This document shows positions 1-62,246 of a stretch of DNA of 62,246 nt, in pieces (positions within the stretch are counted from its first letter, which is position 1; every line of letters begins with the position of its first letter). The notes under the pieces are model-generated. The model was not told the origin of the DNA and did no database searches. It saw only the letters and a list, made by a program, of their open reading frames with translations. The position numbers and the translations under genes are program-made. The DNA is from a virus: the IMG/VR virus record IMGVR_UViG_3300024355_000391, positions 1 through 62,246 of that record; one strand, given 5' to 3'.

Positions 1-150
1 CTTTTCGGGGTCAAACCTAATATAAAAAGTTACTTTATAACCTTTTAGATTTTCCAAAGCATCATTTACCTTCTGTTGTTCCTTATGCTTTTGGATTTGA
101 AGTTCAAGTTCGTTGAGTTGTTCTTCAGTCAGTTGTGAAAGGTCAATCAT
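1..150 (-). CDS. small charged protein, 3' end cut by window
   Basis: The first 50 residues are visible from an ATG; the gene runs off the left edge in frame. The N-terminal half is rich in Glu, Gln, Lys and Leu and probably forms a helix, followed by a VTFYIRF strand. No family is recognised. A TATAAT box lies about 25 bases upstream, so it may head its own transcript. Confidence 0.6.
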   Translation of the reverse strand, partial: MIDLSQLTEEQLNELELQIQKHKEQQKVNDALENLKGYKVTFYIRFDPEK

Positions 151-49368: not shown

Positions 49369-49626
49369 TTAAAAAACCAATTTTGCACGGGAAGTTTTTT
49401 TAAGAAAGTTTAGTTCCATTGCTTCATACTTAATCTTTTCCTTCAAAGGTTTTGAAATGAGTTTAGGAACTGATTCTAAATCAATATTGTTTTGCTCACA
49501 GAAATGAACAATAGCATCAATATAATTCATTTCAACATTAACTTGCACAAGATTTTCAATTTCTTGTGCAAATCGTGATGGACAAAAGAACTTGTTTTCT
49601 AATGCTTTTTCTAATTCATTCTCCAT
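49369..49626 (-). CDS. 33: late transcription coactivator gp33
   Basis: 85 residues: PSRFAQEIENLVQVNVEMNY, IDAIVHFCEQNNIDLESVPK, LISKPLKEKIKYEAMELNFL. This is the cyanophage gp33, which links gp55-RNA polymerase to the sliding clamp for late transcription. The start at 49626 (MENELEKALENKFFC) is chosen by 11-base overlap with the exonuclease gene. It supports reading the TATAAATA sites as late promoters. Confidence 0.8.
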   Translation of the reverse strand: MENELEKALENKFFCPSRFAQEIENLVQVNVEMNYIDAIVHFCEQNNIDLESVPKLISKPLKEKIKYEAMELNFLKKTSRAKLVF

Positions 49627-53797: not shown

Positions 53798-54369
53798 GAA
53801 CGACCCCCCCATTGAATATCGGAGTAGGCTTCGGAAACAATTTCTTTAGTTATTTTATATTTAGTTTCAAGTCTTTTATCTTTTGTTAGAACTAAAACTT
53901 CCGCTTCTTTAGGATGAAGTCCCTCCAAAATATTAATGAACATGGTTTCTCTACGAAGAGAACTTAGTGTATCATTGCCACCTTTTACAAAGTTATAGAA
54001 CATATGATACTCTCTTCGGATAGAAGACTTCCCTTGGTCCATAGATCCAAGAGAATTGGAGTCTAACTCATCCATTTTAGAAACTGCATCATTAATTTTT
54101 CCACTTAGAGTTCCACTGTAAGAGGTTTGTTCTCCAGTGCTTGCATATGGAACATCACCTTCAGGAAGCAGTGAAATCACAGTATCATCAAAATTCCAAA
54201 TAAAAATTGCTTTTAGGGAATCATGTTCATAAGTTTTAAGAACTTCCACTTTCTTTGCATTACTTCTTTGCTTTGATGTAAGCTCTAAAATCTCAAATAT
54301 AAAAGGATTTGTGGGAAGAGTTTCAATCGGTTTTTCAGTCGTCGCTTTCTTCGTCTTCGTCGTAGTCAT
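53794..54369 (-). CDS. DUF6433-type conserved protein, 191 aa
   Basis: ELTSKQRSNAKKVEVLKTYE, LKAIFIWNFDDTVISLLPEG, GGNDTLSSLRRETMFINILE and GLHPKEAEVLVLTKDK are the hallmarks of the DUF6433 family conserved in T4-like phages of cyanobacteria. No known function. Start MTTTKTKK at 54369; a longer start at 54387 cannot be excluded. Confidence 0.75.
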   Translation of the reverse strand: MTTTKTKKATTEKPIETLPTNPFIFEILELTSKQRSNAKKVEVLKTYEHDSLKAIFIWNFDDTVISLLPEGDVPYASTGEQTSYSGTLSGKINDAVSKMDELDSNSLGSMDQGKSSIRREYHMFYNFVKGGNDTLSSLRRETMFINILEGLHPKEAEVLVLTKDKRLETKYKITKEIVSEAYSDIQWGGRS

Positions 54370-54568
54370 AATCGTAATCGTTTTCAAATCGTACAGATAC
54401 TATTTCGTCAGGAATCACCTGCCCATTTTCATCAAAGAACTCTGGATGTAAATATGGAGGTTTTGACTCCAACAAATGCCTATAAGTTAACCAACCTATT
54501 ATACCTCCTACCATAAAAAAGAGCAATGTGAACATTGTAACGAATGTTATTACATATGCTGTTTCCAT
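54335..54568 (-). CDS. membrane protein, 77 aa
   Basis: Residues 4-29 (AYVITFVTMFTLLFFMVGGI) form one transmembrane helix, followed by YRHLLESKPPYLHPEFFDEN and an extremely acidic tail. It overlaps the DUF6433-type gene by 35 bases. Likely inner membrane; role unknown. Confidence 0.7.
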   Translation of the reverse strand: METAYVITFVTMFTLLFFMVGGIIGWLTYRHLLESKPPYLHPEFFDENGQVIPDEIVSVRFENDYDYDYDEDEESDD

Positions 54569-54586
54569 TTTTCTTCTCCAGAGAGT

Positions 54587-54793
54587 TTATTTTTTCCTAA
54601 TATCAAAATGAAATTCTATAAAGAAATGAAACTCTCTACGGAAGAGAGAAATCATTTTACCAAACTTCACTTGAAAAGTCTTTGGCGTTGATGATTTTCT
54701 CCTCCTATTGCGTAGTAATAATTCAACACCCCTATTAATTTGAGGTTCTGACTTATTTAGTTTGCTTCTTTCTCCTTCCTGGTCTTTTGTCAT
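54587..54793 (-). CDS. small basic protein, 68 aa
   Basis: MTKDQEGERSKLNKSEPQIN, then RGVELLLRNRRRKSSTPKTF and FRREFHFFIEFHFDIRKK. Strongly basic, probably DNA- or RNA-binding. Overlaps the upstream gene by 41 bases at this start. No family recognised. Confidence 0.6.
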   Translation of the reverse strand: MTKDQEGERSKLNKSEPQINRGVELLLRNRRRKSSTPKTFQVKFGKMISLFRREFHFFIEFHFDIRKK

Positions 54794-55112
54794 GATTATA
54801 TCTCCAGGCATCTTCAAGAATACCGTAAAGGTAATTTCTTATTTTTCTTGCTTGTGGTTTTGGAATATGTCCATATCCTTCACGAAGTTGTTTATGAATC
54901 TCATCTGATCCACCCTCAAGATAATCATCCAAATCCATTACAAGATTACTCAGCTCGTGTGCTGTATTACTTTCAATAAATTGTTCAACCTCTACTTTTT
55001 TAGTTCCACGAACTTTTAGATAATCATAAAAACTCAAAACAAATTGACCATTGAAAGCATAATCAATTGCTTTTTCTACATCGTTACAAACTTCGTGAAT
55101 GGTGTTTTCCAT
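54753..55112 (-). CDS. hypothetical protein, 119 aa
   Basis: The start at 55112 (MENTIHEVCNDVEKAIDYAF) gives a TAATG junction with glutaredoxin. Helical in the middle (ESNTAHELSNLVMDLDDYLE) with a basic C-terminus (KPQARKIRNYLYG, DKRPGRRKKQTK). No family recognised. Confidence 0.65.
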   Translation of the reverse strand: MENTIHEVCNDVEKAIDYAFNGQFVLSFYDYLKVRGTKKVEVEQFIESNTAHELSNLVMDLDDYLEGGSDEIHKQLREGYGHIPKPQARKIRNYLYGILEDAWRYNHDKRPGRRKKQTK

Positions 55113-55348
55113 TAAACTAGATTTTGCTCCTTTAGATATTGAACAGTATCGGTGCATCCACCAATGTGTTGGTCATTTACAATCACTTGAGGAAAGGTAG
55201 ATCCCTCTCCGAATTCTGAATAAAATTCTTCTCTACTAAAATCACTATTCAATTTGTAGACTACATGTTGCAGTTGTGCCAACTCTAGCACCTGTTGAAC
55301 TTTTGTGCAATATGGGCAACCATCTTTTGAATAAACTGTGAACTTCAT
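55112..55348 (-). CDS. grx: glutaredoxin
   Basis: 78 residues. CPYC active site (about residues 11-14), TFPQVIVN cis-proline region and GGCTD. Glutaredoxins reduce ribonucleotide reductase and other disulfides; they are common in T4-like cyanophages. The start at 55348 shares ATGA with the small gene upstream. A perfect late box TATAAATA lies at 55371-55378, inside that gene. Confidence 0.9.
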   Translation of the reverse strand: MKFTVYSKDGCPYCTKVQQVLELAQLQHVVYKLNSDFSREEFYSEFGEGSTFPQVIVNDQHIGGCTDTVQYLKEQNLV

Positions 55349-55476
55349 TTTTTTCTGCAATTTTGTGGAATATTTATAGAAGATTTATTATAAGTCTTTA
55401 CTGGTGGTCTGTAAAGTCCAGGCCATGTATCACGAATAATTTCTGCGAGTTTGTATGGTGTTGTAGAAGTTATCAT
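55345..55476 (-). CDS. small protein, 43 aa
   Basis: ATG to TGA: MITSTTPYKLAEIIRDTWPG, LYRPPVKTYNKSSINIPQNC. ATGA overlaps with glutaredoxin downstream and with the tiny hydrophobic frame upstream argue that it is translated. It may be the remnant of a longer gene broken by the endonuclease gene upstream. Confidence 0.5.
   Translation of the reverse strand: MITSTTPYKLAEIIRDTWPGLYRPPVKTYNKSSINIPQNCRKK
55371..55378 (-). promoter_or_regulatory. T4-type late promoter TATAAATA
   Basis: Perfect match on the minus strand, 22 bases before the glutaredoxin start; it overlaps coding sequence of the 43-residue protein. Confidence 0.5.
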
Positions 55477-55547
55477 AAGTCCTGCATAACAGATAATATA
55501 AACATTAGGATTCCAAAAAGTTGGAAGAGAACTAAGATGAGAAGCAT
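55473..55547 (-). CDS. tiny hydrophobic peptide, 24 aa
   Basis: MLLILVLFQLFGILMFILSV then MQDL; one transmembrane helix. It is linked by ATGA to the 43-residue gene and overlaps the 3' end of the HNH gene by 16 bases. Support is only the coupling, so it may be a chance frame. Confidence 0.3.
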   Translation of the reverse strand: MLLILVLFQLFGILMFILSVMQDL

Positions 55548-56101
55548 TTGAGGTTTTCTACTAGGAGTTCTAATTCTTGTAGGGATGCGTCCCATTTTAG
55601 GGCATTCGCTCTTGAAGATATAACCCAAATATTATCGGGGGTATATCCTTTACCAGGAACCTTTTGATCTAAACTAGGATTTCTTGGATCTCTTTTATCA
55701 TTAGTAGATACAAGAGGTATTCCAAGTAAAGGACAAGTTTCTGGAATAATAATATCATCTATAGTTATACTAAATGGAATACCCTTTCTTTTTGCCCTAT
55801 GTTGAGCATTATGAAACATACTATATCTTCTATCGTCTTTTTTTAATTCACCTTCTGGTTTCTTTTTAGTTTTATTAAAAGCAATAGTAGTTTCTCTCCT
55901 AACACACCCACAACTAGTAGTTGAACCATTCATAAGACCATATCTCTCGCAAGTTTTTTCTCCACCACATTCACATTTACAAGTTGAATAAACTCTATTC
56001 TTCCCACTCTTAAAGACTACTTCTTCTTTCAGGACAGTAAGTTTTCCAAATTTTTTACCAATCAAAGCACCACAAGGTTTTGATTTATTATTTAAGGGCA
56101 T
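55532..56101 (-). CDS. HNH-type homing endonuclease
   Basis: 189 residues. The N-terminal GKKFGKLTVL, CKCECG and SCGC form the zinc ribbon found in AP2/HNH-type phage homing endonucleases, and the C-terminus SLDQKVPGKGYTPDNIWVIS with RANALKWDAS is the HNH core. It is placed just downstream of psbD behind its own perfect late promoter (56127-56134). Free-standing homing genes usually cut near their insertion site. Confidence 0.8.
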   Translation of the reverse strand: MPLNNKSKPCGALIGKKFGKLTVLKEEVVFKSGKNRVYSTCKCECGGEKTCERYGLMNGSTTSCGCVRRETTIAFNKTKKKPEGELKKDDRRYSMFHNAQHRAKRKGIPFSITIDDIIIPETCPLLGIPLVSTNDKRDPRNPSLDQKVPGKGYTPDNIWVISSRANALKWDASLQELELLVENLKCFSS

Positions 56102-56126
56102 TATCCTAACTTTGAATATCTATTAT

Positions 56127-56134
56127 TATTTATA
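56127..56134 (-). promoter_or_regulatory. T4-type late promoter TATAAATA
   Basis: Exact match on the minus strand, about 26 bases upstream of the HNH endonuclease gene. Confidence 0.65.
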
Positions 56135-56163
56135 TTTTATCATACTTTGGGTCTTATGTAAAT

Positions 56164-56190
56164 AAAAAAGACCCCAACAATGAGGTCTTT
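56164..56190 (-). terminator. psbD rho-independent terminator
   Basis: Stem AAAGACC with GGTCTTT, loop CAACAATGAG-like 10 bases, followed by T-rich sequence on the minus strand, directly downstream of psbD. Confidence 0.7.
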
Positions 56191-56194
56191 AAAA

Positions 56195-57256
56195 TCAAAG
56201 TGCGTTGCCCCGAGGCAAAACTTCCTCTGGAAAAACAAAATTTTCATGTGGTTGGTCTACGGGAGCCATCCAAGCACGAAGCCCTTCGTTAAGAAGTATA
56301 TTCTTCGTGTAGAAAGTTTCGTATTCCGGATTGACGGCTGCTTCAATCTCCTGACTAACAAAGTCGTAAGCACGAAGATTGAGAGCAAGACCGATAATCC
56401 CGATAGAAGATGTCCAGAGACCCATGACGGGAACAAAGAGCATAAAGAAATGTAACCAACGCTTGTTACTAAAAGCAATTCCAAAGATTTGCGACCAGAA
56501 ACGGTTAGCAGTAACCATTGAATAGGTTTCTTCCTCTTGTGTTGGTTCGAATGCCTTGAATGTATTTGCTTGATCACTATCTTCAAATAGTGTGTTTTCT
56601 ACAGTTGCTCCGTGAATAGCACAGAGCAGTGCTCCACCCAGTATACCAGCAACACCCATCATATGAAATGGGTTAAGAGTCCAGTTGTGAAAACCCTGAA
56701 GGAACAGAAGGAACCTGAAGATAGCAGCAACACCAAAGGAAGGTGCAAAGAACCAACTGGATTGACCCAGAGGGTACATCAGGAAGACGCTCACAAACAC
56801 TGCGATGGGACCAGAGAATGCAATTGCGTTGTAAGGACGGATGCCTACCAGTCGTGAGATCTCAAACTGGCGAAGCATAAATCCGATCAGACTAAAGGCC
56901 CCGTGGAGCGCCACAAAAGTCCATAGTCCCCCAAGTTGGAACCACCTGACGATATCCCCTTGAGCCTCAGGACCCCAGAGCAGAAGAAGAGAATGACCCA
57001 TAGAATCTGCTGGAGTACTAACTGCTGCAGTAAGAAAGTTTGCACCCTCAAGATAGGAACTCGCAAGCCCGTGAGTATACCAACTCGTGACGAAAGTTGT
57101 CCCAGTAATCCAACCACCAAGAGCAAGATAAGCAGTGGGAAAAAGAAGAAGTCCAGACCAGCCAACAAAAACGAAACGGTCTCTTTTAAGCCAGTCATCG
57201 AGTACATCAAACCATCCTCGTTGTTGAATAGGTTGTGAAAGTGTAGAAGAAGTCAT
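56195..57256 (-). CDS. psbD: photosystem II D2 protein
   Basis: 353 residues, all hallmark D2 features: YD-type Tyr161, His198 (P680 ligand), His215 and His269 (non-heme iron), helix sequences [30 protein letters not shown] and [13 protein letters not shown], and the C-terminus [10 protein letters not shown]. In the host it pairs with D1 in the PSII reaction centre; phage copies keep PSII going during infection. A strong AAGGAGG site is 4 bases before the ATG, and the promoter at 57278-57311 has an early -35/-10 fused to a late box. Confidence 0.97.
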
Positions 57257-57277
57257 AACCTCCTTAGTTATTTCTCA

Positions 57278-57311
57278 TATTTATCTTAACATTCCTTAAC
57301 AAAGTAGTCAA
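57278..57311 (-). promoter_or_regulatory. psbD promoter: TTGACT-17-TAAGAT fused to late box GATAAATA
   Basis: TTGACT (57306-57311), 17-base spacer, TAAGAT (57283-57288) and, overlapping it, GATAAATA (57278-57285), one mismatch to TATAAATA. The early -10 and the late box share three bases, as in the psbA promoter. The psbD ATG is about 22 bases downstream. Confidence 0.7.
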
Positions 57312-57324
57312 TGAGTGTTTGTGC

Positions 57325-57447
57325 TTATCCCCAATACATCTGACCGAGAGTGAATAAGACAAATACAAGAACTGTAAATACCATCATACCTACACCTGCC
57401 CAGATGATCCAGGGTTCCATAGGATGATGTTGATTATTATGAGACAT
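57325..57447 (-). CDS. small membrane protein, 40 aa
   Basis: ATG to TAA: MSHNNQHHPMEPWIIWAGVG, MMVFTVLVFVLFTLGQMYWG. His-rich N-terminus and one transmembrane helix. It lies between psbD and the psbA relic and right behind the relic's terminator. Size and topology recall small photosystem or high-light proteins, but the sequence does not match hli or a Psb subunit I know. Confidence 0.6.
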   Translation of the reverse strand: MSHNNQHHPMEPWIIWAGVGMMVFTVLVFVLFTLGQMYWG

Positions 57448-57474
57448 AAAAAAAGAGGGTTGTTACACCCTCTA
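57448..57474 (-). terminator. terminator duplicated from psbA
   Basis: Stem AGAGGGT with ACCCTCT, loop 6 bases (GTAACA on the minus strand), then TTTTTTTAT. Its layout parallels the psbA terminator at 59034-59061 (AGAGACC stem, TTTACA loop, seven T). It follows the psbA 3' relic. Confidence 0.7.
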
Positions 57475-57498
57475 ATTATATCAGTTATTCAGTTGTTA

Positions 57499-57537
57499 TC
57501 AACCAATTGAAGGTGCAGTGAGAGCAACAGGAGTTGC
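57499..57537 (-). pseudogene. relic of the psbA 3' end
   Basis: On the minus strand these bases read [12 protein letters not shown]-stop, equal to the D1 C-terminus ([12 protein letters not shown]-stop) with one change of the last four, and the DNA is about 85% identical over 40 bases. The motif AACTGAATAA downstream is also shared with psbA. It is a duplicated 3' fragment without the rest of the gene. Confidence 0.8.
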
Positions 57538-57570
57538 TTCAGAAAACTGAGGATAGGTTTTTATTATTAC

Positions 57571-57598
57571 TTGACTTTTTGATAATTTATGATATAGT
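57571..57598 (+). promoter_or_regulatory. early promoter TTGACT-16-TATAGT
   Basis: Plus-strand -35 TTGACT (57571-57576) and -10 TATAGT (57593-57598), 43 bases before the gene at 57641. Confidence 0.55.
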
Positions 57599-57640
57599 TT
57601 CTTAGTGGAAACACACATCACACACATTAGGAGAATATCT

Positions 57641-57844
57641 ATGACACCTTATGAACTTCGATTTGAAATCTTTAAGCAAGCATATAATATGCTTAATGAC
57701 CAGTTTAGCATGGAATATGATACTGCTGTTCGTTGGAATGAAGATGAGAACAAAAAAGTAGCAATGGATTATCCAGAGTTTCCAACACTTAATCAAGTTC
57801 TAGAACAAGCAGAAATCATTAATGATTTTGTAAGTTCCAAATAA
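57641..57844 (+). CDS. conserved cyanophage protein, 67 aa
   Basis: Start at 57641 with TTAGGAGA about 7 bases upstream. MTPYELRFEIFKQAYNMLND, QFSMEYDTAVRWNEDENKKV and NQVLEQAEIINDFVSSK. Similar helical proteins of this size occur near photosynthesis genes of cyanophages; function unknown. It has its own promoter and terminator. Confidence 0.7.
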   Translation: MTPYELRFEIFKQAYNMLNDQFSMEYDTAVRWNEDENKKVAMDYPEFPTLNQVLEQAEIINDFVSSK

Positions 57845-57848
57845 AGTT

Positions 57849-57875
57849 AAAGGAGGGTTTTATCCCTCCTTTTTT
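57849..57875 (+). terminator. rho-independent terminator
   Basis: Stem AAAGGAGGG with CCCTCCTTT, loop TTTTAT, then a T-run on the plus strand, just after the 67-residue gene. It also ends the convergent gene at 57877 on the other strand, weakly. Confidence 0.75.
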
Positions 57876-57876
57876 A

Positions 57877-58611
57877 TTATCTTTTGTTTCTATTATAAGT
57901 TGCTCTTACAGCATCAAAAGATACTCTATCCTTTTCCTTTTCATCATCGGGAAGATTTGAATATGATGTATTAGCAAGTTTTGCTCTTCTTTGTTTCTTT
58001 TCTGGTGTTTGGTCTGTACTTGTTTTAGCAGTTCTTGCCCAACCCTGATGAACTGCATCAGCACCTGCTTCTCTTGAAGTTCCACTACCACTTCTTTCAC
58101 CTCTTCTAATAGCACGAAGGGCAGCGGCAGCAGATGAACGATTTGCTGCTCTACCGAAAGAACGCTTATCACCAGATGCTCTACCATATCCATATCTTTT
58201 ATCTAATGCAGCATCAGATGCTTTCTCATAAGGACTATCCTCTCTTTCTATAATATTGTCTCTCCACTCTTCACTCATATTCACCATAATTGCTTCTGCT
58301 GCTTGTTGAGTATCAGCATATCCTTCATCAAGTAAGTGTGAAAGAATTAGATCGTAAACATCTACTTCTTCTTTTGCTAAATCAGAATCGACACGAACAT
58401 TTGAACCTGTTCTTACATTTCTTCTTGCTGCTGCCTGATGAGCGCGGCGTCTTGCCATCCAAGCACCACTTATACCACCACTATCTACATCTTGTGCATC
58501 TCTCTTTCTTAACATTCCTTTGACTTTTCTATCAGAGATTTCATCCAGTTGCTGATTTTCAACAACTTCCATATATGCTTCTTGAAGATTGCGAAGTTCT
58601 TGTGCGTCCAT
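57877..58611 (-). CDS. conserved protein with DEGYADTQQAAEAIMVNMSE motif, 244 aa
   Basis: MDAQELRNLQEAYMEVVENQ at the start and YDLILSHLLDEGYADTQQAA, EAIMVNMSEEWRDNII at 84-120 are repeated signatures in several T4-like cyanophage proteins, thought structural. Basic Arg/Ala/Ser-rich C-terminal half (SGDKRSFGRAANRSSAAAAL). Late box CCTAAATA at 58632-58639. Confidence 0.65.
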   Translation of the reverse strand: MDAQELRNLQEAYMEVVENQQLDEISDRKVKGMLRKRDAQDVDSGGISGAWMARRRAHQAAARRNVRTGSNVRVDSDLAKEEVDVYDLILSHLLDEGYADTQQAAEAIMVNMSEEWRDNIIEREDSPYEKASDAALDKRYGYGRASGDKRSFGRAANRSSAAAALRAIRRGERSGSGTSREAGADAVHQGWARTAKTSTDQTPEKKQRRAKLANTSYSNLPDDEKEKDRVSFDAVRATYNRNKR

Positions 58612-58626
58612 TTTTATGAATACTTT

Positions 58627-58989
58627 TTAGTTATTTAGGTATTCTATCATCTTTTGAAGAGTGCTGATGTTGTCTCCTACAAGACCTAATGCAGTGTTGC
58701 AGTTGTTACAGAGAACACCACGAACCTTATTTGTAGAGTGGCAGTGGTCTATACACTTCTTGGTTAGTTCCACATCACATATTTGGCAGTTCTCATTCTT
58801 CATTAGGTCATTATATTGGTCTTCTGTAAGTTTAAATCTGCGTCTAGCATATTCGTGAGTCTTATAATATTGCCTACGAACTTCCCGTTCACAATCCTTA
58901 CACTTTGATTGAACCCCAGAAGGTCTACTACTTCTTTTAGAGAAACTATCAAGTTCTTTTGTTTCTCCACATCTACTACAAGTTTTCAT
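58627..58989 (-). CDS. EndoVII-family endonuclease
   Basis: 120 residues from the start at 58989 (MKTCSRCGETKELDSFSKRS). CIDHCHSTNKVRGVLCNNCN with TALG is the recombination-endonuclease VII core; CSRCG and CKDC give zinc sites. Free-standing genes of this type act as homing endonucleases in phages. It lies just downstream of psbA, where S-PM2-type cyanophages have F-CphI, which cuts intron-less psbA; family relation to F-CphI is not established. Confidence 0.75.
   Translation of the reverse strand: MKTCSRCGETKELDSFSKRSSRPSGVQSKCKDCEREVRRQYYKTHEYARRRFKLTEDQYNDLMKNENCQICDVELTKKCIDHCHSTNKVRGVLCNNCNTALGLVGDNISTLQKMIEYLNN
58632..58639 (-). promoter_or_regulatory. late promoter variant CCTAAATA
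   Basis: Minus strand, about 20 bases before the gene at 58611, inside the last codons of the EndoVII-like gene. Confidence 0.45.
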
Positions 58990-59015
58990 TATGGTATGGA
59001 AGTTTGGTATGGAAC

Positions 59016-59023
59016 TATTTATG
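59016..59023 (-). promoter_or_regulatory. late promoter variant CATAAATA
   Basis: One mismatch to the late box, about 27 bases before the EndoVII-like gene. Confidence 0.5.
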
Positions 59024-59033
59024 AATAATACCA

Positions 59034-59061
59034 TAAAAAAAGAGACCTGTAAAGGTCTCTT
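59034..59061 (-). terminator. psbA rho-independent terminator
   Basis: Stem AGAGACC with GGTCTCT, loop TTTACA on the minus strand, then seven T. It sits about 25 bases after psbA and is parallel to the terminator at 57448. Confidence 0.75.
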
Positions 59062-59086
59062 CATTCTTATTCAGTTTTTATAAAAC

Positions 59087-60166
59087 TCAACCGATTGCGG
59101 GTGCAGTAAGGGCAACAGGAGTGTTGCTAGCAGCAGCAAGATCCAGAGGGAAATTGTGTGCATTCCTTTCGTGCATCACCTCGAGCCCGAGTCCAGCACG
59201 GTTCAGAACATCTGCCCAAGTGTTGAGGACACGACCCTGTGAATCAATGATGGACTGGTTAAAGTTGAAACCGTTGAGGTTGAATGCCATGGTGCTAACA
59301 CCAAGAGCAGTGAACCAGATACCAACTACAGGCCATGCAGCAAGGAAGAAGTGCAGCGAACGTGAGTTATTAAAGGAAGCATATTGGAAAATAAGGCGTC
59401 CGAAATAACCGTGAGCAGCAACGATGTTATAGGTCTCTTCTTCTTGACCAAACTTGTAACCATAGTTCTGTGACTCGTTCTCAGTGGTTTCACGAACCAG
59501 TGAGGAAGTAACCAGAGAACCGTGCATAGCACTGAACAGAGAACCTCCAAAGACACCAGCCACACCAAGCATGTGGAAGGGGTGCATCAGGATGTTGTGC
59601 TCTGCCTGGAACACAAGCATATAGTTGAACGTACCAGAGATACCCAGAGGCATCGCATCAGAGAAAGAACCTTGACCGAAAGGATACACCAGGAACACAG
59701 CAGAAGCAGCAGCCACAGGTGCAGAGTAAGCAACACAGATCCAAGGACGCATACCAAGACGGTATGAAAGTTCCCATTCACGACCCATGTAAGCGTAGAT
59801 ACCGATAAGGAAGTGGAACACTACAAGTTGGAAAGGACCACCGTTGTAAAGCCACTCATCAAGCGAAGCAGCTTCCCAGATGGGATAAAAGTGCAGTCCA
59901 ATCGCGTTGGACGAAGGAATAACAGCACCAGAGATGATGTTGTTTCCGTACATGAGTGAACCAGCAACGGGTTCACGGATACCATCAATGTCCACTGGGG
60001 GAGCACCGATGAATGCGATGATGAAACAAGTCGTAGCAGCAAGCAGGCAAGGAATCATGAGGACTCCGAACCAACCGACATAAAGACGATTATCGGTTGA
60101 TGTGACCCAGTTGCAGAATTGTTCCCAAGTATTCGATTGTCGTTGACGTGAAATTGTAGCAGTCAT
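59087..60166 (-). CDS. psbA: photosystem II D1 protein
   Basis: 359 residues, intact, no intron. Ligands of the Mn cluster and cofactors are all present: D170, H190 with Y161 (YZ), H198, H215, H272, H332, E333, D342 and A344 at the processing site. Residue 130 is Glu ([13 protein letters not shown]), the high-light (D1:2) type. QB residues S264-F265 and H252 are present. Phage D1 replaces photodamaged D1 during infection. No Shine-Dalgarno sequence is visible; the leader of about 160 bases carries three hairpins and the promoter at 60330-60363. Confidence 0.98.
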
Positions 60167-60216
60167 TGTTTTAAGCAGTTAGTAAGACCATCAGGGAAAT
60201 GGTGGAGATACTATGC

Positions 60217-60319
60217 TCCCCGCACCCTTAGCGGGGATATGAGAGACGTAATTTATACACCCATAGGTCTCGGTTATCGGGTGTCTAACAATGTTAAGGG
60301 AACGTTGCGTTCCGTAACA
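60217..60319 (-). promoter_or_regulatory. structured psbA 5' leader (three stem-loops)
   Basis: The leader between the promoter and ATG contains three inverted repeats on the minus strand: 60292-60319 (TGTTA..GGAACG/CGTTCC..TAACA), 60257-60284 (ACACCC-ATA/TAT-GGGTGT) and 60217-60237 (TCCCCGC/GCGGGGA). No T-runs follow, so they are not terminators; they may influence stability or translation of psbA mRNA. Confidence 0.55.
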
Positions 60320-60329
60320 TTTGTTTACC

Positions 60330-60363
60330 TATTTATCATACTACGGTTTGCCGCCTGTGTCAA
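60330..60363 (-). promoter_or_regulatory. psbA promoter: TTGACA-17-TATGAT fused to late box GATAAATA
   Basis: TTGACA (60358-60363), 17-base spacer and TATGAT (60335-60340) match the sigma-70 consensus; GATAAATA (60330-60337) overlaps the -10. The fused element TATGATAAATA is nearly the same as TAAGATAAATA in front of psbD. Confidence 0.75.
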
Positions 60364-60389
60364 CCCCCCTCCCCAAATGGGGACACTCT

Positions 60390-60397
60390 CCTAAATA
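60390..60397 (+). promoter_or_regulatory. late promoter variant CCTAAATA
   Basis: Plus strand, about 30 bases before the exported-protein operon starting at 60427; divergent to the psbA promoter. Confidence 0.45.
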
Positions 60398-60426
60398 CTC
60401 ATAGTGTTTATCACAACAATAAGAAA

Positions 60427-60888
60427 ATGAAAAGACTTCTATTAGCCTTTTCGTTATTCTTCGCAATCCCAGTTAATGCTGCTGAAATTACATCAAAAAT
60501 CACTGATTCCGTTCAATTGAAAGTTGATGGTGCCGCAGTTCAATCAACTCGAATTGGTGCTTCCTATTCGGCGTCAGGAACCAATATCCAAGCAACATCC
60601 TTTGGAGGTGTTGGTGGTGCTGGAACCTATGACATTAATACTCCAGGTCAAGCATTTACTTTCTCTGAAAGTTTCAATGCTGCTGATACTCCAGTTAATA
60701 CTCAAACAGTTACTAACGGTGTTATTGGAACACCAAATCTCTACGGAGATAGTGTAACTCAAGTTGGTGGTGAGAAAGGAACTCTTGCAGGTACTCTTTC
60801 ACCAACTGGTGTTCCTACTGTTACTGCTGGTGGTGCTGGAACAAGTGCTACTGCTCAAAGGTCCATTGAACTGAGTGTATTCAAATGA
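60427..60888 (+). CDS. exported protein, 153 aa
   Basis: MKRLLLAFSLFFAIPVNAAE is a signal peptide (cleavage after NAA). The mature part is Gly/Thr/Ser/Val-rich with GTNIQ, YDINTPGQAFTFSESF and alternating beta strands. It is paralogous to the next gene. Role unknown; periplasmic or outer-membrane location inferred. Confidence 0.75.
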   Translation: MKRLLLAFSLFFAIPVNAAEITSKITDSVQLKVDGAAVQSTRIGASYSASGTNIQATSFGGVGGAGTYDINTPGQAFTFSESFNAADTPVNTQTVTNGVIGTPNLYGDSVTQVGGEKGTLAGTLSPTGVPTVTAGGAGTSATAQRSIELSVFK

Positions 60889-61250
60889 GACATTTAACTC
60901 CCGTTTTGCTTTTAGCAACGGGAGTCATTTGTACTCCCGTTTATGCTGAGAGCGTTGTGCCTAATTTTACTAGAGGCACAATCAATGCAACAACAGAATC
61001 TACAACAAGAATTGTAGAAGCAATCCGCCAAGTTGAATATACAACTGGTGAATCTTATACTGTAACTGGTACGAACATCAACATTCCTGGAAATCCTACT
61101 AAGGATACAAATTATAGTATTACAACTCCTGGTGCTCCATTCCAGTTCAGTGAAACCTATCTCGGACCTGGAGTGGCAAAAGAAACATGGATAGATCGCA
61201 CCACAGAAACTCAATCAACTACTACATCAATCTCTGTCTTTACGCAATAA
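60885..61250 (+). CDS. exported protein, 121 aa, paralogue of the preceding gene
   Basis: MRHLTPVLLLATGVICTPVYAES is a signal peptide. YTVTGTNINIPGNPTKDTNY and SITTPGAPFQFSETY align with the motifs of the preceding protein, so the two come from a duplication. ATGA overlap between the genes. Function unknown. Confidence 0.75.
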   Translation: MRHLTPVLLLATGVICTPVYAESVVPNFTRGTINATTESTTRIVEAIRQVEYTTGESYTVTGTNINIPGNPTKDTNYSITTPGAPFQFSETYLGPGVAKETWIDRTTETQSTTTSISVFTQ

Positions 61251-61765
61251 TTTCAACAGGGACTGCATTTGCTCAGCAAGCTCCATCAAATACAAACATC
61301 GCAGGACCTTCAGCATCTGCTACTGGTAATGTAACAAACCAGGCAGTTCAAGTGCTTCAGGGCCCTTATGCTATGAATACATTTGGTGCTGGTGTTTCTT
61401 GTCAAGGACCAACATTTTCCCTGGCACCATTTATTATTGGTAATGGTAATGCTAGTCAAGATCCAGAACAGTTTTCATCTTATTCTGGAAATGCTGGATT
61501 ATCTATGGGATTTAATATTCCCTTAGATGGTTCTTTACAAGAACTCTGCAAATCAAGAGCAAGAGTTGAAATCTCAAGACAACAAGCCGAAGCTGATAAA
61601 GCAAGATTAGATTTTGAACTTGTAAGATTATTAAAATGTGGTGAAGCATACAAAGCAGGAATTATGTTCCATCCTGATAGTCCTTACTACAAAGTTTGTG
61701 AAGATATTGTTGTGAAGTACCCAAGAGTTGAGGATGTGGTCAATGGAACCAATACAACCTATTGA
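61187..61765 (+). CDS. exported protein, 192 aa
   Basis: The start at 61187 overlaps the previous gene by 64 bases and gives a basic N-terminus (MDRSHHRNSINYYINLC) followed by a hydrophobic signal (LYAIISTGTAFAQQ). The mature part has cysteines (CQGPTF, LCKSRARVEISRQQAEADKA), a helical coiled region and a Gly/Ser/Asn-rich front. Start choice is uncertain. Confidence 0.6.
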   Translation: MDRSHHRNSINYYINLCLYAIISTGTAFAQQAPSNTNIAGPSASATGNVTNQAVQVLQGPYAMNTFGAGVSCQGPTFSLAPFIIGNGNASQDPEQFSSYSGNAGLSMGFNIPLDGSLQELCKSRARVEISRQQAEADKARLDFELVRLLKCGEAYKAGIMFHPDSPYYKVCEDIVVKYPRVEDVVNGTNTTY

Positions 61766-62246
61766 TAATCCAAACTTAAGGCAAATAATCGGAAATAATC
61801 CGATTAACATACCGAGTGCAAGTATCAACAGAATATCTGGTCCATCTATAATCTCAACTATAGATAGACCAAATGTTCGTTCTGTAGAAGCACCTGTTGT
61901 TCGTGGTCTTGAAGTTCCTGTTATTGATGCCCCAAATACTACGATTAAATATCCAGTTATTAATGTTCCAACTCAAGCAGAGTTTGATGCTGCTGTAAAA
62001 GCAGAGCGTGAAAAACAAGCAACAGAACAACAAGAAAAAACAAGGGGGTTGCCTGATACTACCCCCCCACCTCAACTGCCTCAGGTTGCTCAAACCCCCC
62101 CTACTCAAACTCCTGTTGTTACTCCAGTTGCAGAAGTTCCAGCAGATAAACCACAACCAACATTTTCTGTTTATGGTGTCGATATTAATTTACCTGACCC
62201 TTCTCTTGTTGCTACGGCTGGTGCTGTCGCAGTAGTCACAACTGCT
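61743..62246 (+). CDS. proline-rich protein, cut by window edge
   Basis: From ATG at 61743 at least 168 residues are open to the window end. It starts MEPIQPIDNPNLRQIIGNNP with GPSIISTIDRPNVRSVEAPV, then a Glu/Gln/Lys-rich segment, a Pro/Thr/Val-rich stretch (TPPPQLPQVAQTPPTQTPV) and a hydrophobic end (PSLVATAGAVAVVTTA), perhaps a membrane anchor. Possible virion or envelope protein; not recognised further. Confidence 0.65.
   Translation, partial: MEPIQPIDNPNLRQIIGNNPINIPSASINRISGPSIISTIDRPNVRSVEAPVVRGLEVPVIDAPNTTIKYPVINVPTQAEFDAAVKAEREKQATEQQEKTRGLPDTTPPPQLPQVAQTPPTQTPVVTPVAEVPADKPQPTFSVYGVDINLPDPSLVATAGAVAVVTTA

Follow-up and report, generated by a model that had tools for sequence, protein, structure and literature searches.

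The photosystem genes psbA (D1) and psbD (D2) of the viral contig IMGVR_UViG_3300024355_000391 (IMG/VR; 62,246 nucleotides, analyzed at its full length and termed the window below) probably each rely on a single compact promoter that two RNA polymerase holoenzymes could open, one carrying the main sigma factor of the host and the other the phage late factor gp55. Ahead of both genes, a sigma-70 -35 hexamer is followed at 17 bp by a box in which a -10 hexamer and a T4-type late promoter box occupy overlapping bases. A promoter for two holoenzymes was the best explanation because each half of this arrangement was conserved even though only one of the two sigma factors would require it.

Architecture of the psbA and psbD Promoters

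Base-by-base reading of the minus strand identified TTGACA-17-TATGATAAATA ahead of psbA (60363-60330) and TTGACT-17-TAAGATAAATA ahead of psbD (57311-57278), in agreement letter for letter with a preliminary description of this DNA (component boxes in Table 1). The three bases which that description counted as common to the -10 hexamer and the late box GATAAATA were GAT in both promoters. Its designation of the late box as carrying one mismatch was incorrect, as GATAAATA at psbA and psbD is a T4-type late box that fully matches the S-PM2 late consensus NATAAATA (PMC2984593). Compared with the sigma-70 (SigA-type) consensus TTGACA/TATAAT, the psbA promoter displayed 11/12 matches and the psbD promoter 9/12 with a TG ahead of the -10, both with a spacer of 17. 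Sigma-70 boxes and a late box with common bases precede one and the same gene in each case, as in overlapping early/late promoters. T4-type late promoters have no conserved -35; here it was kept at 17 bp, and the psbA and psbD promoters are thus not plain late promoters. By convention, the host -10 hexamer covers positions -12 to -7. The late box covers -13 to -6 (PMC1524935), and this positional arithmetic predicts psbD starts at 57276 from the -10 hexamer and at 57272 from the late box, with 21 bases between the end of the fused box and the ATG.

The pattern TTGAC-N18-TANN-ATAAATA matched twice in the window and never in 100 dinucleotide shuffles, supporting the earlier argument that a design common to two genes speaks against chance, although the pattern was derived from the two sites themselves and the independent evidence is conservation. 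By itself, GATAAATA was not rare (3 in the window versus 5.2 expected), and sigma-70-like sites by themselves showed no clear excess (25 versus a shuffle mean of 21.1, standard deviation 3.8, within 54000-62246). Only the psbA and psbD sites among the 29 [AC]TAAATA boxes of the window had a -35 match of at least 5/6 at 17 bp, the other 27 scoring 0-3. A chance meeting of two common motifs was ruled out by the shuffles, by these -35 scores, and by the spacing histogram described below.

Conservation in Phages and Absence From Hosts

The psbA comparison included 121 viral loci with the window among them, 116 of which had enough upstream sequence for a search with TTGA[CT]-N17..19-T[AT]NN-[AC]TAAATA. 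The fusion was identified in 76/77 T4-like loci (61/62 without near-duplicates), such that the late-box conservation in related phages, named as a check in the preliminary description, was borne out. All 76 fused T4-like sites had TTGAC, with a spacer of 17 in 73, 18 in two, and 16 in one. The fusion was also present in 18/24 unclassified loci, and the same upstream search found it in 0/15 T7-like loci. The T4 late apparatus plays no part in T7-like phages, which for that reason constitute a natural control. A first classification had assigned 24 loci as podoviral, 22 of which had usable sequence upstream of psbA; the fusion was present in seven of these 22, and each of the seven had been assigned by one weak 110-amino acid (aa) match. 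When two podovirus markers were demanded, these seven became unclassified rather than T4-like and nine others moved from unclassified to T4-like. The respective counts were 70/71 T4-like and 7/22 podovirus loci by the first classification and 76/77 and 0/15 by the second. The late box was broadened to [AC]TAAATA after CTAAATA was seen in loci first scored as without the fusion, and with ATAAATA only, the non-redundant T4-like psbA count is 55/62 instead of 61/62. CTAAATA is the late motif of phage Aeh1 (PMC1524935), and the variant TATACTAAATA is compatible with both a sigma-70 -10 and a late box.

No fusion was found in 120 unique cyanobacterial host psbA upstreams, of which 15 had a lone [AC]TAAATA within 350 nt; the host set comprised 129 upstreams from 138 loci, 80 of these loci being the best 80 matches of a scan, and Prochlorococcus was not recognized among them. 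An origin of the fused promoter in the host, brought along with the gene, was not supported by this result.

Spacing was analyzed in a pool of 89 non-redundant T4-like sequences (1,358,398 bases, in which the psbA-psbD region is overrepresented). TTGAC was followed by TANN-[AC]TAAATA with a spacer of 17 at 110 sites, 18 at 4 sites, and 10-16 or 19-25 at none, and with the TANN requirement dropped, 0 to 2 sites were found at every other spacing. Sixty-three of the 114 sites lay ahead of psbA, 40 ahead of psbD, and 11 ahead of other genes. The ATAAATA form was detected at 60 sites in 35 of 40 whole IMG/VR records selected because they carry psbA or psbD, and the reversed pattern at none.

The two halves were also conserved separately. 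T4 late promoters show no conservation at -35 (PMC2988020), and in the complete Syn9 genome a -35 of at least 5/6 at 17 bp accompanied 1/38 ATAAATA sites, that of psbA. Several plain ATAAATA sites of Syn9 lie a short way upstream of annotated structural genes, as at 113915 (portal gene, 113953) and 110912 (tail sheath gene, 110958). Conversely, AAATA behind the -10 is not needed by host promoters and followed 1/22 plus-strand TTGACA-16..18-TANNNT sites in Syn9, again at psbA, while the other 21 differ, and 228/338 TTGAC-17-TANNNT sites in the pool were unfused. Information values from pattern-found sites are high at fixed letters by construction, which anchoring on TTGAC-N18-TA only avoids on the 3' side; psbA upstreams anchored in this way kept the five AAATA bases in 92, 90, 89, 91, and 91 of 92 (duplicates included). 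The psbA spacer held 0.40 bits versus 1.77 for the conserved -35, a contrast set in part by the pattern.

The psbD Promoter and Operon Layout

The psbD gene mostly had its own fused promoter when apart from psbA and had none when close behind it. The fusion was identified at psbD in 52/86 T4-like and 14/24 unclassified loci, and, when 95 partly redundant loci with both genes were ordered by the psbA-psbD gap, in 0/22 at up to 200 nt, 9/24 at 201-400 nt, and 43/49 above 400 nt. The psbD spacer was itself conserved (1.12 bits versus 0.40 for psbA), and TTAA-N6-TTAA occurred in 28/45 distinct psbD fused sites versus 0/74 psbA ones. In the window, the psbD spacer (57286-57299, minus strand) has a second TTAA ten bases ahead of the TTAA at the -10.

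Other Genes Behind Fused Sites

Fourteen complete named cyanomyoviruses contained one to three fused sites each (24 in total), the podovirus P-SSP7 contained none, and the reversed pattern gave two sites across these 15 records. The genes behind the 24 sites were psbA (11), psbD (1, in S-PM2), Phage_OMP (8, a Pfam family of beta-barrel proteins, all eight positions being confirmed), talC (1), a pair of open reading frames (ORFs) with a plastocyanin-like product from the second (1), and an ORF of 58 aa without recognizable identity (2). No recognized structural gene was among the first genes downstream of these sites. Phage_OMP genes carried the fusion in 8 of the 17 located, an eighteenth not being located.

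An untargeted scan of viral contigs yielded, among the matches listed, 85 sites in 80 loci, comprising 14 at psbA, 3 at psbD, and 68 at other genes, with chance matches to be expected in a scan of 2.9 million contigs. As 68/85 of the listed sites precede other genes, the fused pattern is not exclusive to psbA and psbD. Pfam analysis of 7 of the 68, picked by eye as promising, gave gp32 (4), Hsp20 (1), OprB (1), and Phage_OMP (1). The gp32 single-strand DNA-binding protein was encoded behind the fused promoter in viral contigs L265, L284, L301, and L305. Porin-like phage proteins were present behind fused promoters in L017, L038, L048, L062, L100, L102, L113, L139, and L283, with OprB plus SLH (Pfam) in L038 and L283 and the other seven judged by likeness of their first residues.

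It is conceivable, though tentative, that these sites represent a distinct and sparsely used class of cyanomyovirus promoter, with an 11-base box read in turn by the host and gp55 polymerases, that would serve host-derived and cell-envelope genes (psbA, psbD, talC, a petE unit, Phage_OMP, and OprB-type porins) rather than virion genes and would be gained or lost with operon layout.

Locus Anatomy and Contig Assignment

Features of the locus are given in Table 1. The RNA upstream of psbA passed the Rfam gathering score of PhotoRC-II, and the predicted 162-nt psbA leader had a folding z of -3.44. PhotoRC-II lay downstream of the promoter in 10/11 fused named psbA loci. A scan of 14 named psbA loci found the RNA in 12, among them P-SSM7 and S-SSM7, both without a fused promoter at psbA.

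Table 1. Coordinates of promoter elements, genes, and neighboring features in the window
Feature	Position	Strand	Basis or remark
psbA -35 hexamer TTGACA	60358..60363	minus	read directly from letters
psbA fused box TATGATAAATA	60330..60340	minus	-10 TATGAT 60340-60335; late box GATAAATA 60337-60330
Predicted psbA starts	60324..60328	minus	~60328 from -10 hexamer, ~60324 from late box; 4 bases apart; arithmetic only
PhotoRC-II (RF01717), structured psbA leader 3' of the fused promoter	60203..60296	minus	84.1 bits (gathering score 39), E 3.3e-14
psbA (D1, 359 aa)	59087..60166	minus	ORF; D1 in phage records
Terminator-like hairpin 3' of psbA, between psbA and psbD	59039..59062	minus	consensus match only
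40-aa hydrophobic, membrane-like ORF, stop just ahead of psbD -35	57325..57447	minus	ORF reading
psbD -35 hexamer TTGACT	57306..57311	minus	read directly from letters
psbD fused box TAAGATAAATA	57278..57288	minus	-10 TAAGAT 57288-57283, TG before it; late box GATAAATA 57285-57278
psbD (D2, 353 aa)	56195..57256	minus	ORF; D2 in phage records
Terminator-like hairpin 3' of psbD	56167..56190	minus	consensus match only
gp33 homologue, late transcription co-activator	49378..49614	minus	46% identity to Syn9 gp33 over 80 aa, E 2e-23

The interval separating psbA and psbD contains ORFs at 57605-57844 on the plus strand and 57877-59064 on the minus strand, one thus being on the opposite strand, and a 145-aa ORF at 58627-59064 resembles an HNH-type endonuclease by eye only. 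An ORF similar to the 40-aa one ahead of psbD was found by a simple motif search in 32/67 psbD loci with a fused promoter versus 1/47 without.

The contig resembles a portion of a T4-like cyanomyovirus genome. Among 19 query proteins, gp33, gp59, gp32, td, and phoH of Syn9 matched in the window and gp55, gp45, gp18, gp20, gp23, and the remaining queries did not, in keeping with the preliminary description, which had reported gp33 as present and gp55 as outside the window. Among annotated records for the region, Synechococcus phage DSL-LC03, which comes from a Chinese lake, ranked best (86% identity, 52% of the query covered), with nearest records possibly outside the comparison.

Weighing of Alternative Explanations

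Several observations weigh against a promoter for two holoenzymes. The fusion was lacking in 6/24 unclassified psbA loci and at psbA in 3/14 complete named cyanomyoviruses (P-SSM4, P-SSM7, and S-SSM7), and the T4-like locus L076 kept TTGAC and TATAGT at 17 bp with the late box absent. At psbD, the fusion was present in 1/10 named genomes with the gene (S-PM2) and absent in 9/10, and S-SM2 has a 608-nt psbA-psbD gap yet a psbD without the fusion. The gp55 that would read the late box was not found in the 62-kb contig with the Syn9 query, and a few S-PM2 genes whose T4 counterparts belong to the middle class showed no middle profile by quantitative PCR (PMC2984593).

The loci with a -35 and -10 but no late box, L076 and P-SSM4 (TTGACA-18-TATAAT at 170462-170491, ending approximately 127 bases ahead of the inferred psbA start, with no TAAATA behind), would suit a promoter for the host sigma factor only, in which AAATA aids the host polymerase from downstream as a discriminator or start region and is no gp55 site. 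This is unlikely given that AAATA is missing at 21/22 sigma-70-like plus-strand sites of Syn9, that most TTGAC-17-TANNNT sites of the pool are unfused, that neither the 120 host psbA upstreams nor the 15 T7-like loci searched have the fusion, and that the letters kept coincide with the late consensus. Another possibility is a middle-mode promoter, at which host polymerase would act with a phage activator bound over the -10 and its 3' side and the likeness to a late box would be secondary. To our knowledge, no such phage activator has been described. Cyanomyoviruses are without motA and asiA homologues (PMC2984593) yet have a middle class (PMC5082946), and the genes concerned are auxiliary metabolic genes (AMGs) and, in other viral contigs, gp32, both of which favor such a mode; it is nevertheless quite improbable, as the box is identical to the late consensus and plain late boxes without a -35 adjoin Syn9 structural genes upstream. 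Finally, the late box was intact in every fused site, albeit by search definition, as would be the case for a late promoter of the gp55 type whose -35 is fortuitous or vestigial. That explanation is very hard to sustain, being contradicted by the spacing histogram and by a -35 and 17-bp distance that were conserved while the letters of the psbA spacer were not (the bit contrast being partly pattern-set).

Proposed Mechanism and Timing

In the preferred model of a promoter opened by two holoenzymes, TTGACN-17-TANNAT would be read in the early or middle phase by the host RNA polymerase carrying its main sigma factor. After synthesis of gp55, gp33, and the gp45 clamp, the gp55 polymerase would read NATAAATA over the same bases and start approximately 4 bases downstream of the host start. 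Expression of the genes would thereby continue once late transcription takes over, and the psbA transcript would then carry the PhotoRC-II leader. From the sequence we infer binding by both holoenzymes, the timing, and a benefit for D1/D2 supply, which the preliminary description had suggested to be held constant. One -10 region for two sigma factors would explain how photosystem-repair genes stay on across the switch.

The abstract of Doron et al. from 2016 reportedly assigns host-like promoters to middle genes. In P-HM2, the AMGs including psbA and psbD fall in the middle expression cluster (PMC5082946), which makes the label "early" questionable. The fused design of the two-phase promoter first proposed for this DNA is genuine and highly conserved; its phases may be more aptly named "host-like, middle, then late" than "early then late". 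Sequence suffices to locate promoters of this type (TTGAC, 18 bases, TANN, and [AC]TAAATA), and with psbD and the few other genes included, the idea could be tested against time-course RNA-seq data that already exist.

Comparison With Known Systems

The psbA part of the two-phase proposal is not new, Puxty et al. (2018; PMC5931967) having published the same reading. In that work, sigma-70 -35 and -10 motifs were described upstream of cyanomyovirus psbA, the -10 motif containing a gp55 late site; S-PM2d was inferred to retain motifs for coordinated early and late expression, and its psbA isoforms were tracked into late infection by RT-qPCR (PMC5931967). The S-PM2 psbA itself bears TTGACGGATTCTGGGGCACCTGCTATAATAAATA, the same design as psbA of the window. 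PMC5931967 has 0 occurrences of psbD. The present analysis adds psbD, the exact spacing of 17 bp, controls from podoviruses and hosts, and further genes (Phage_OMP, talC, porins, and gp32). No paper describing a psbD promoter as a fused early/late one was found in a search that fell short of most subscription literature.

Control of early and middle transcription in cyanomyoviruses has been called unclear, MotA and AsiA homologues being lacking (PMC2984593). Overlapping early/late promoters have been proposed for RB49 and are thought to apply to S-PM2, and both kinds are found upstream of S-PM2 and Syn9 genes (PMC2984593). The promoters described here resemble that type in placing early and late promoters together in place of MotA-driven middle transcription, and differ in that the genes there are S-PM2 homologues of T4 MotA-controlled genes (PMC2984593), whereas those here are host-derived. 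PhotoRC-II (RF01717) is the same leader as that known upstream of cyanophage psbA (PMC9602691; PMC2864571) and is a leader, not a promoter. With the T4-type late promoter (TATAAATA; NATAAATA in S-PM2), the fused sites have in common the same box placed at -10, but ordinary late promoters are without the conserved -35 (PMC2988020) that the fused sites keep.

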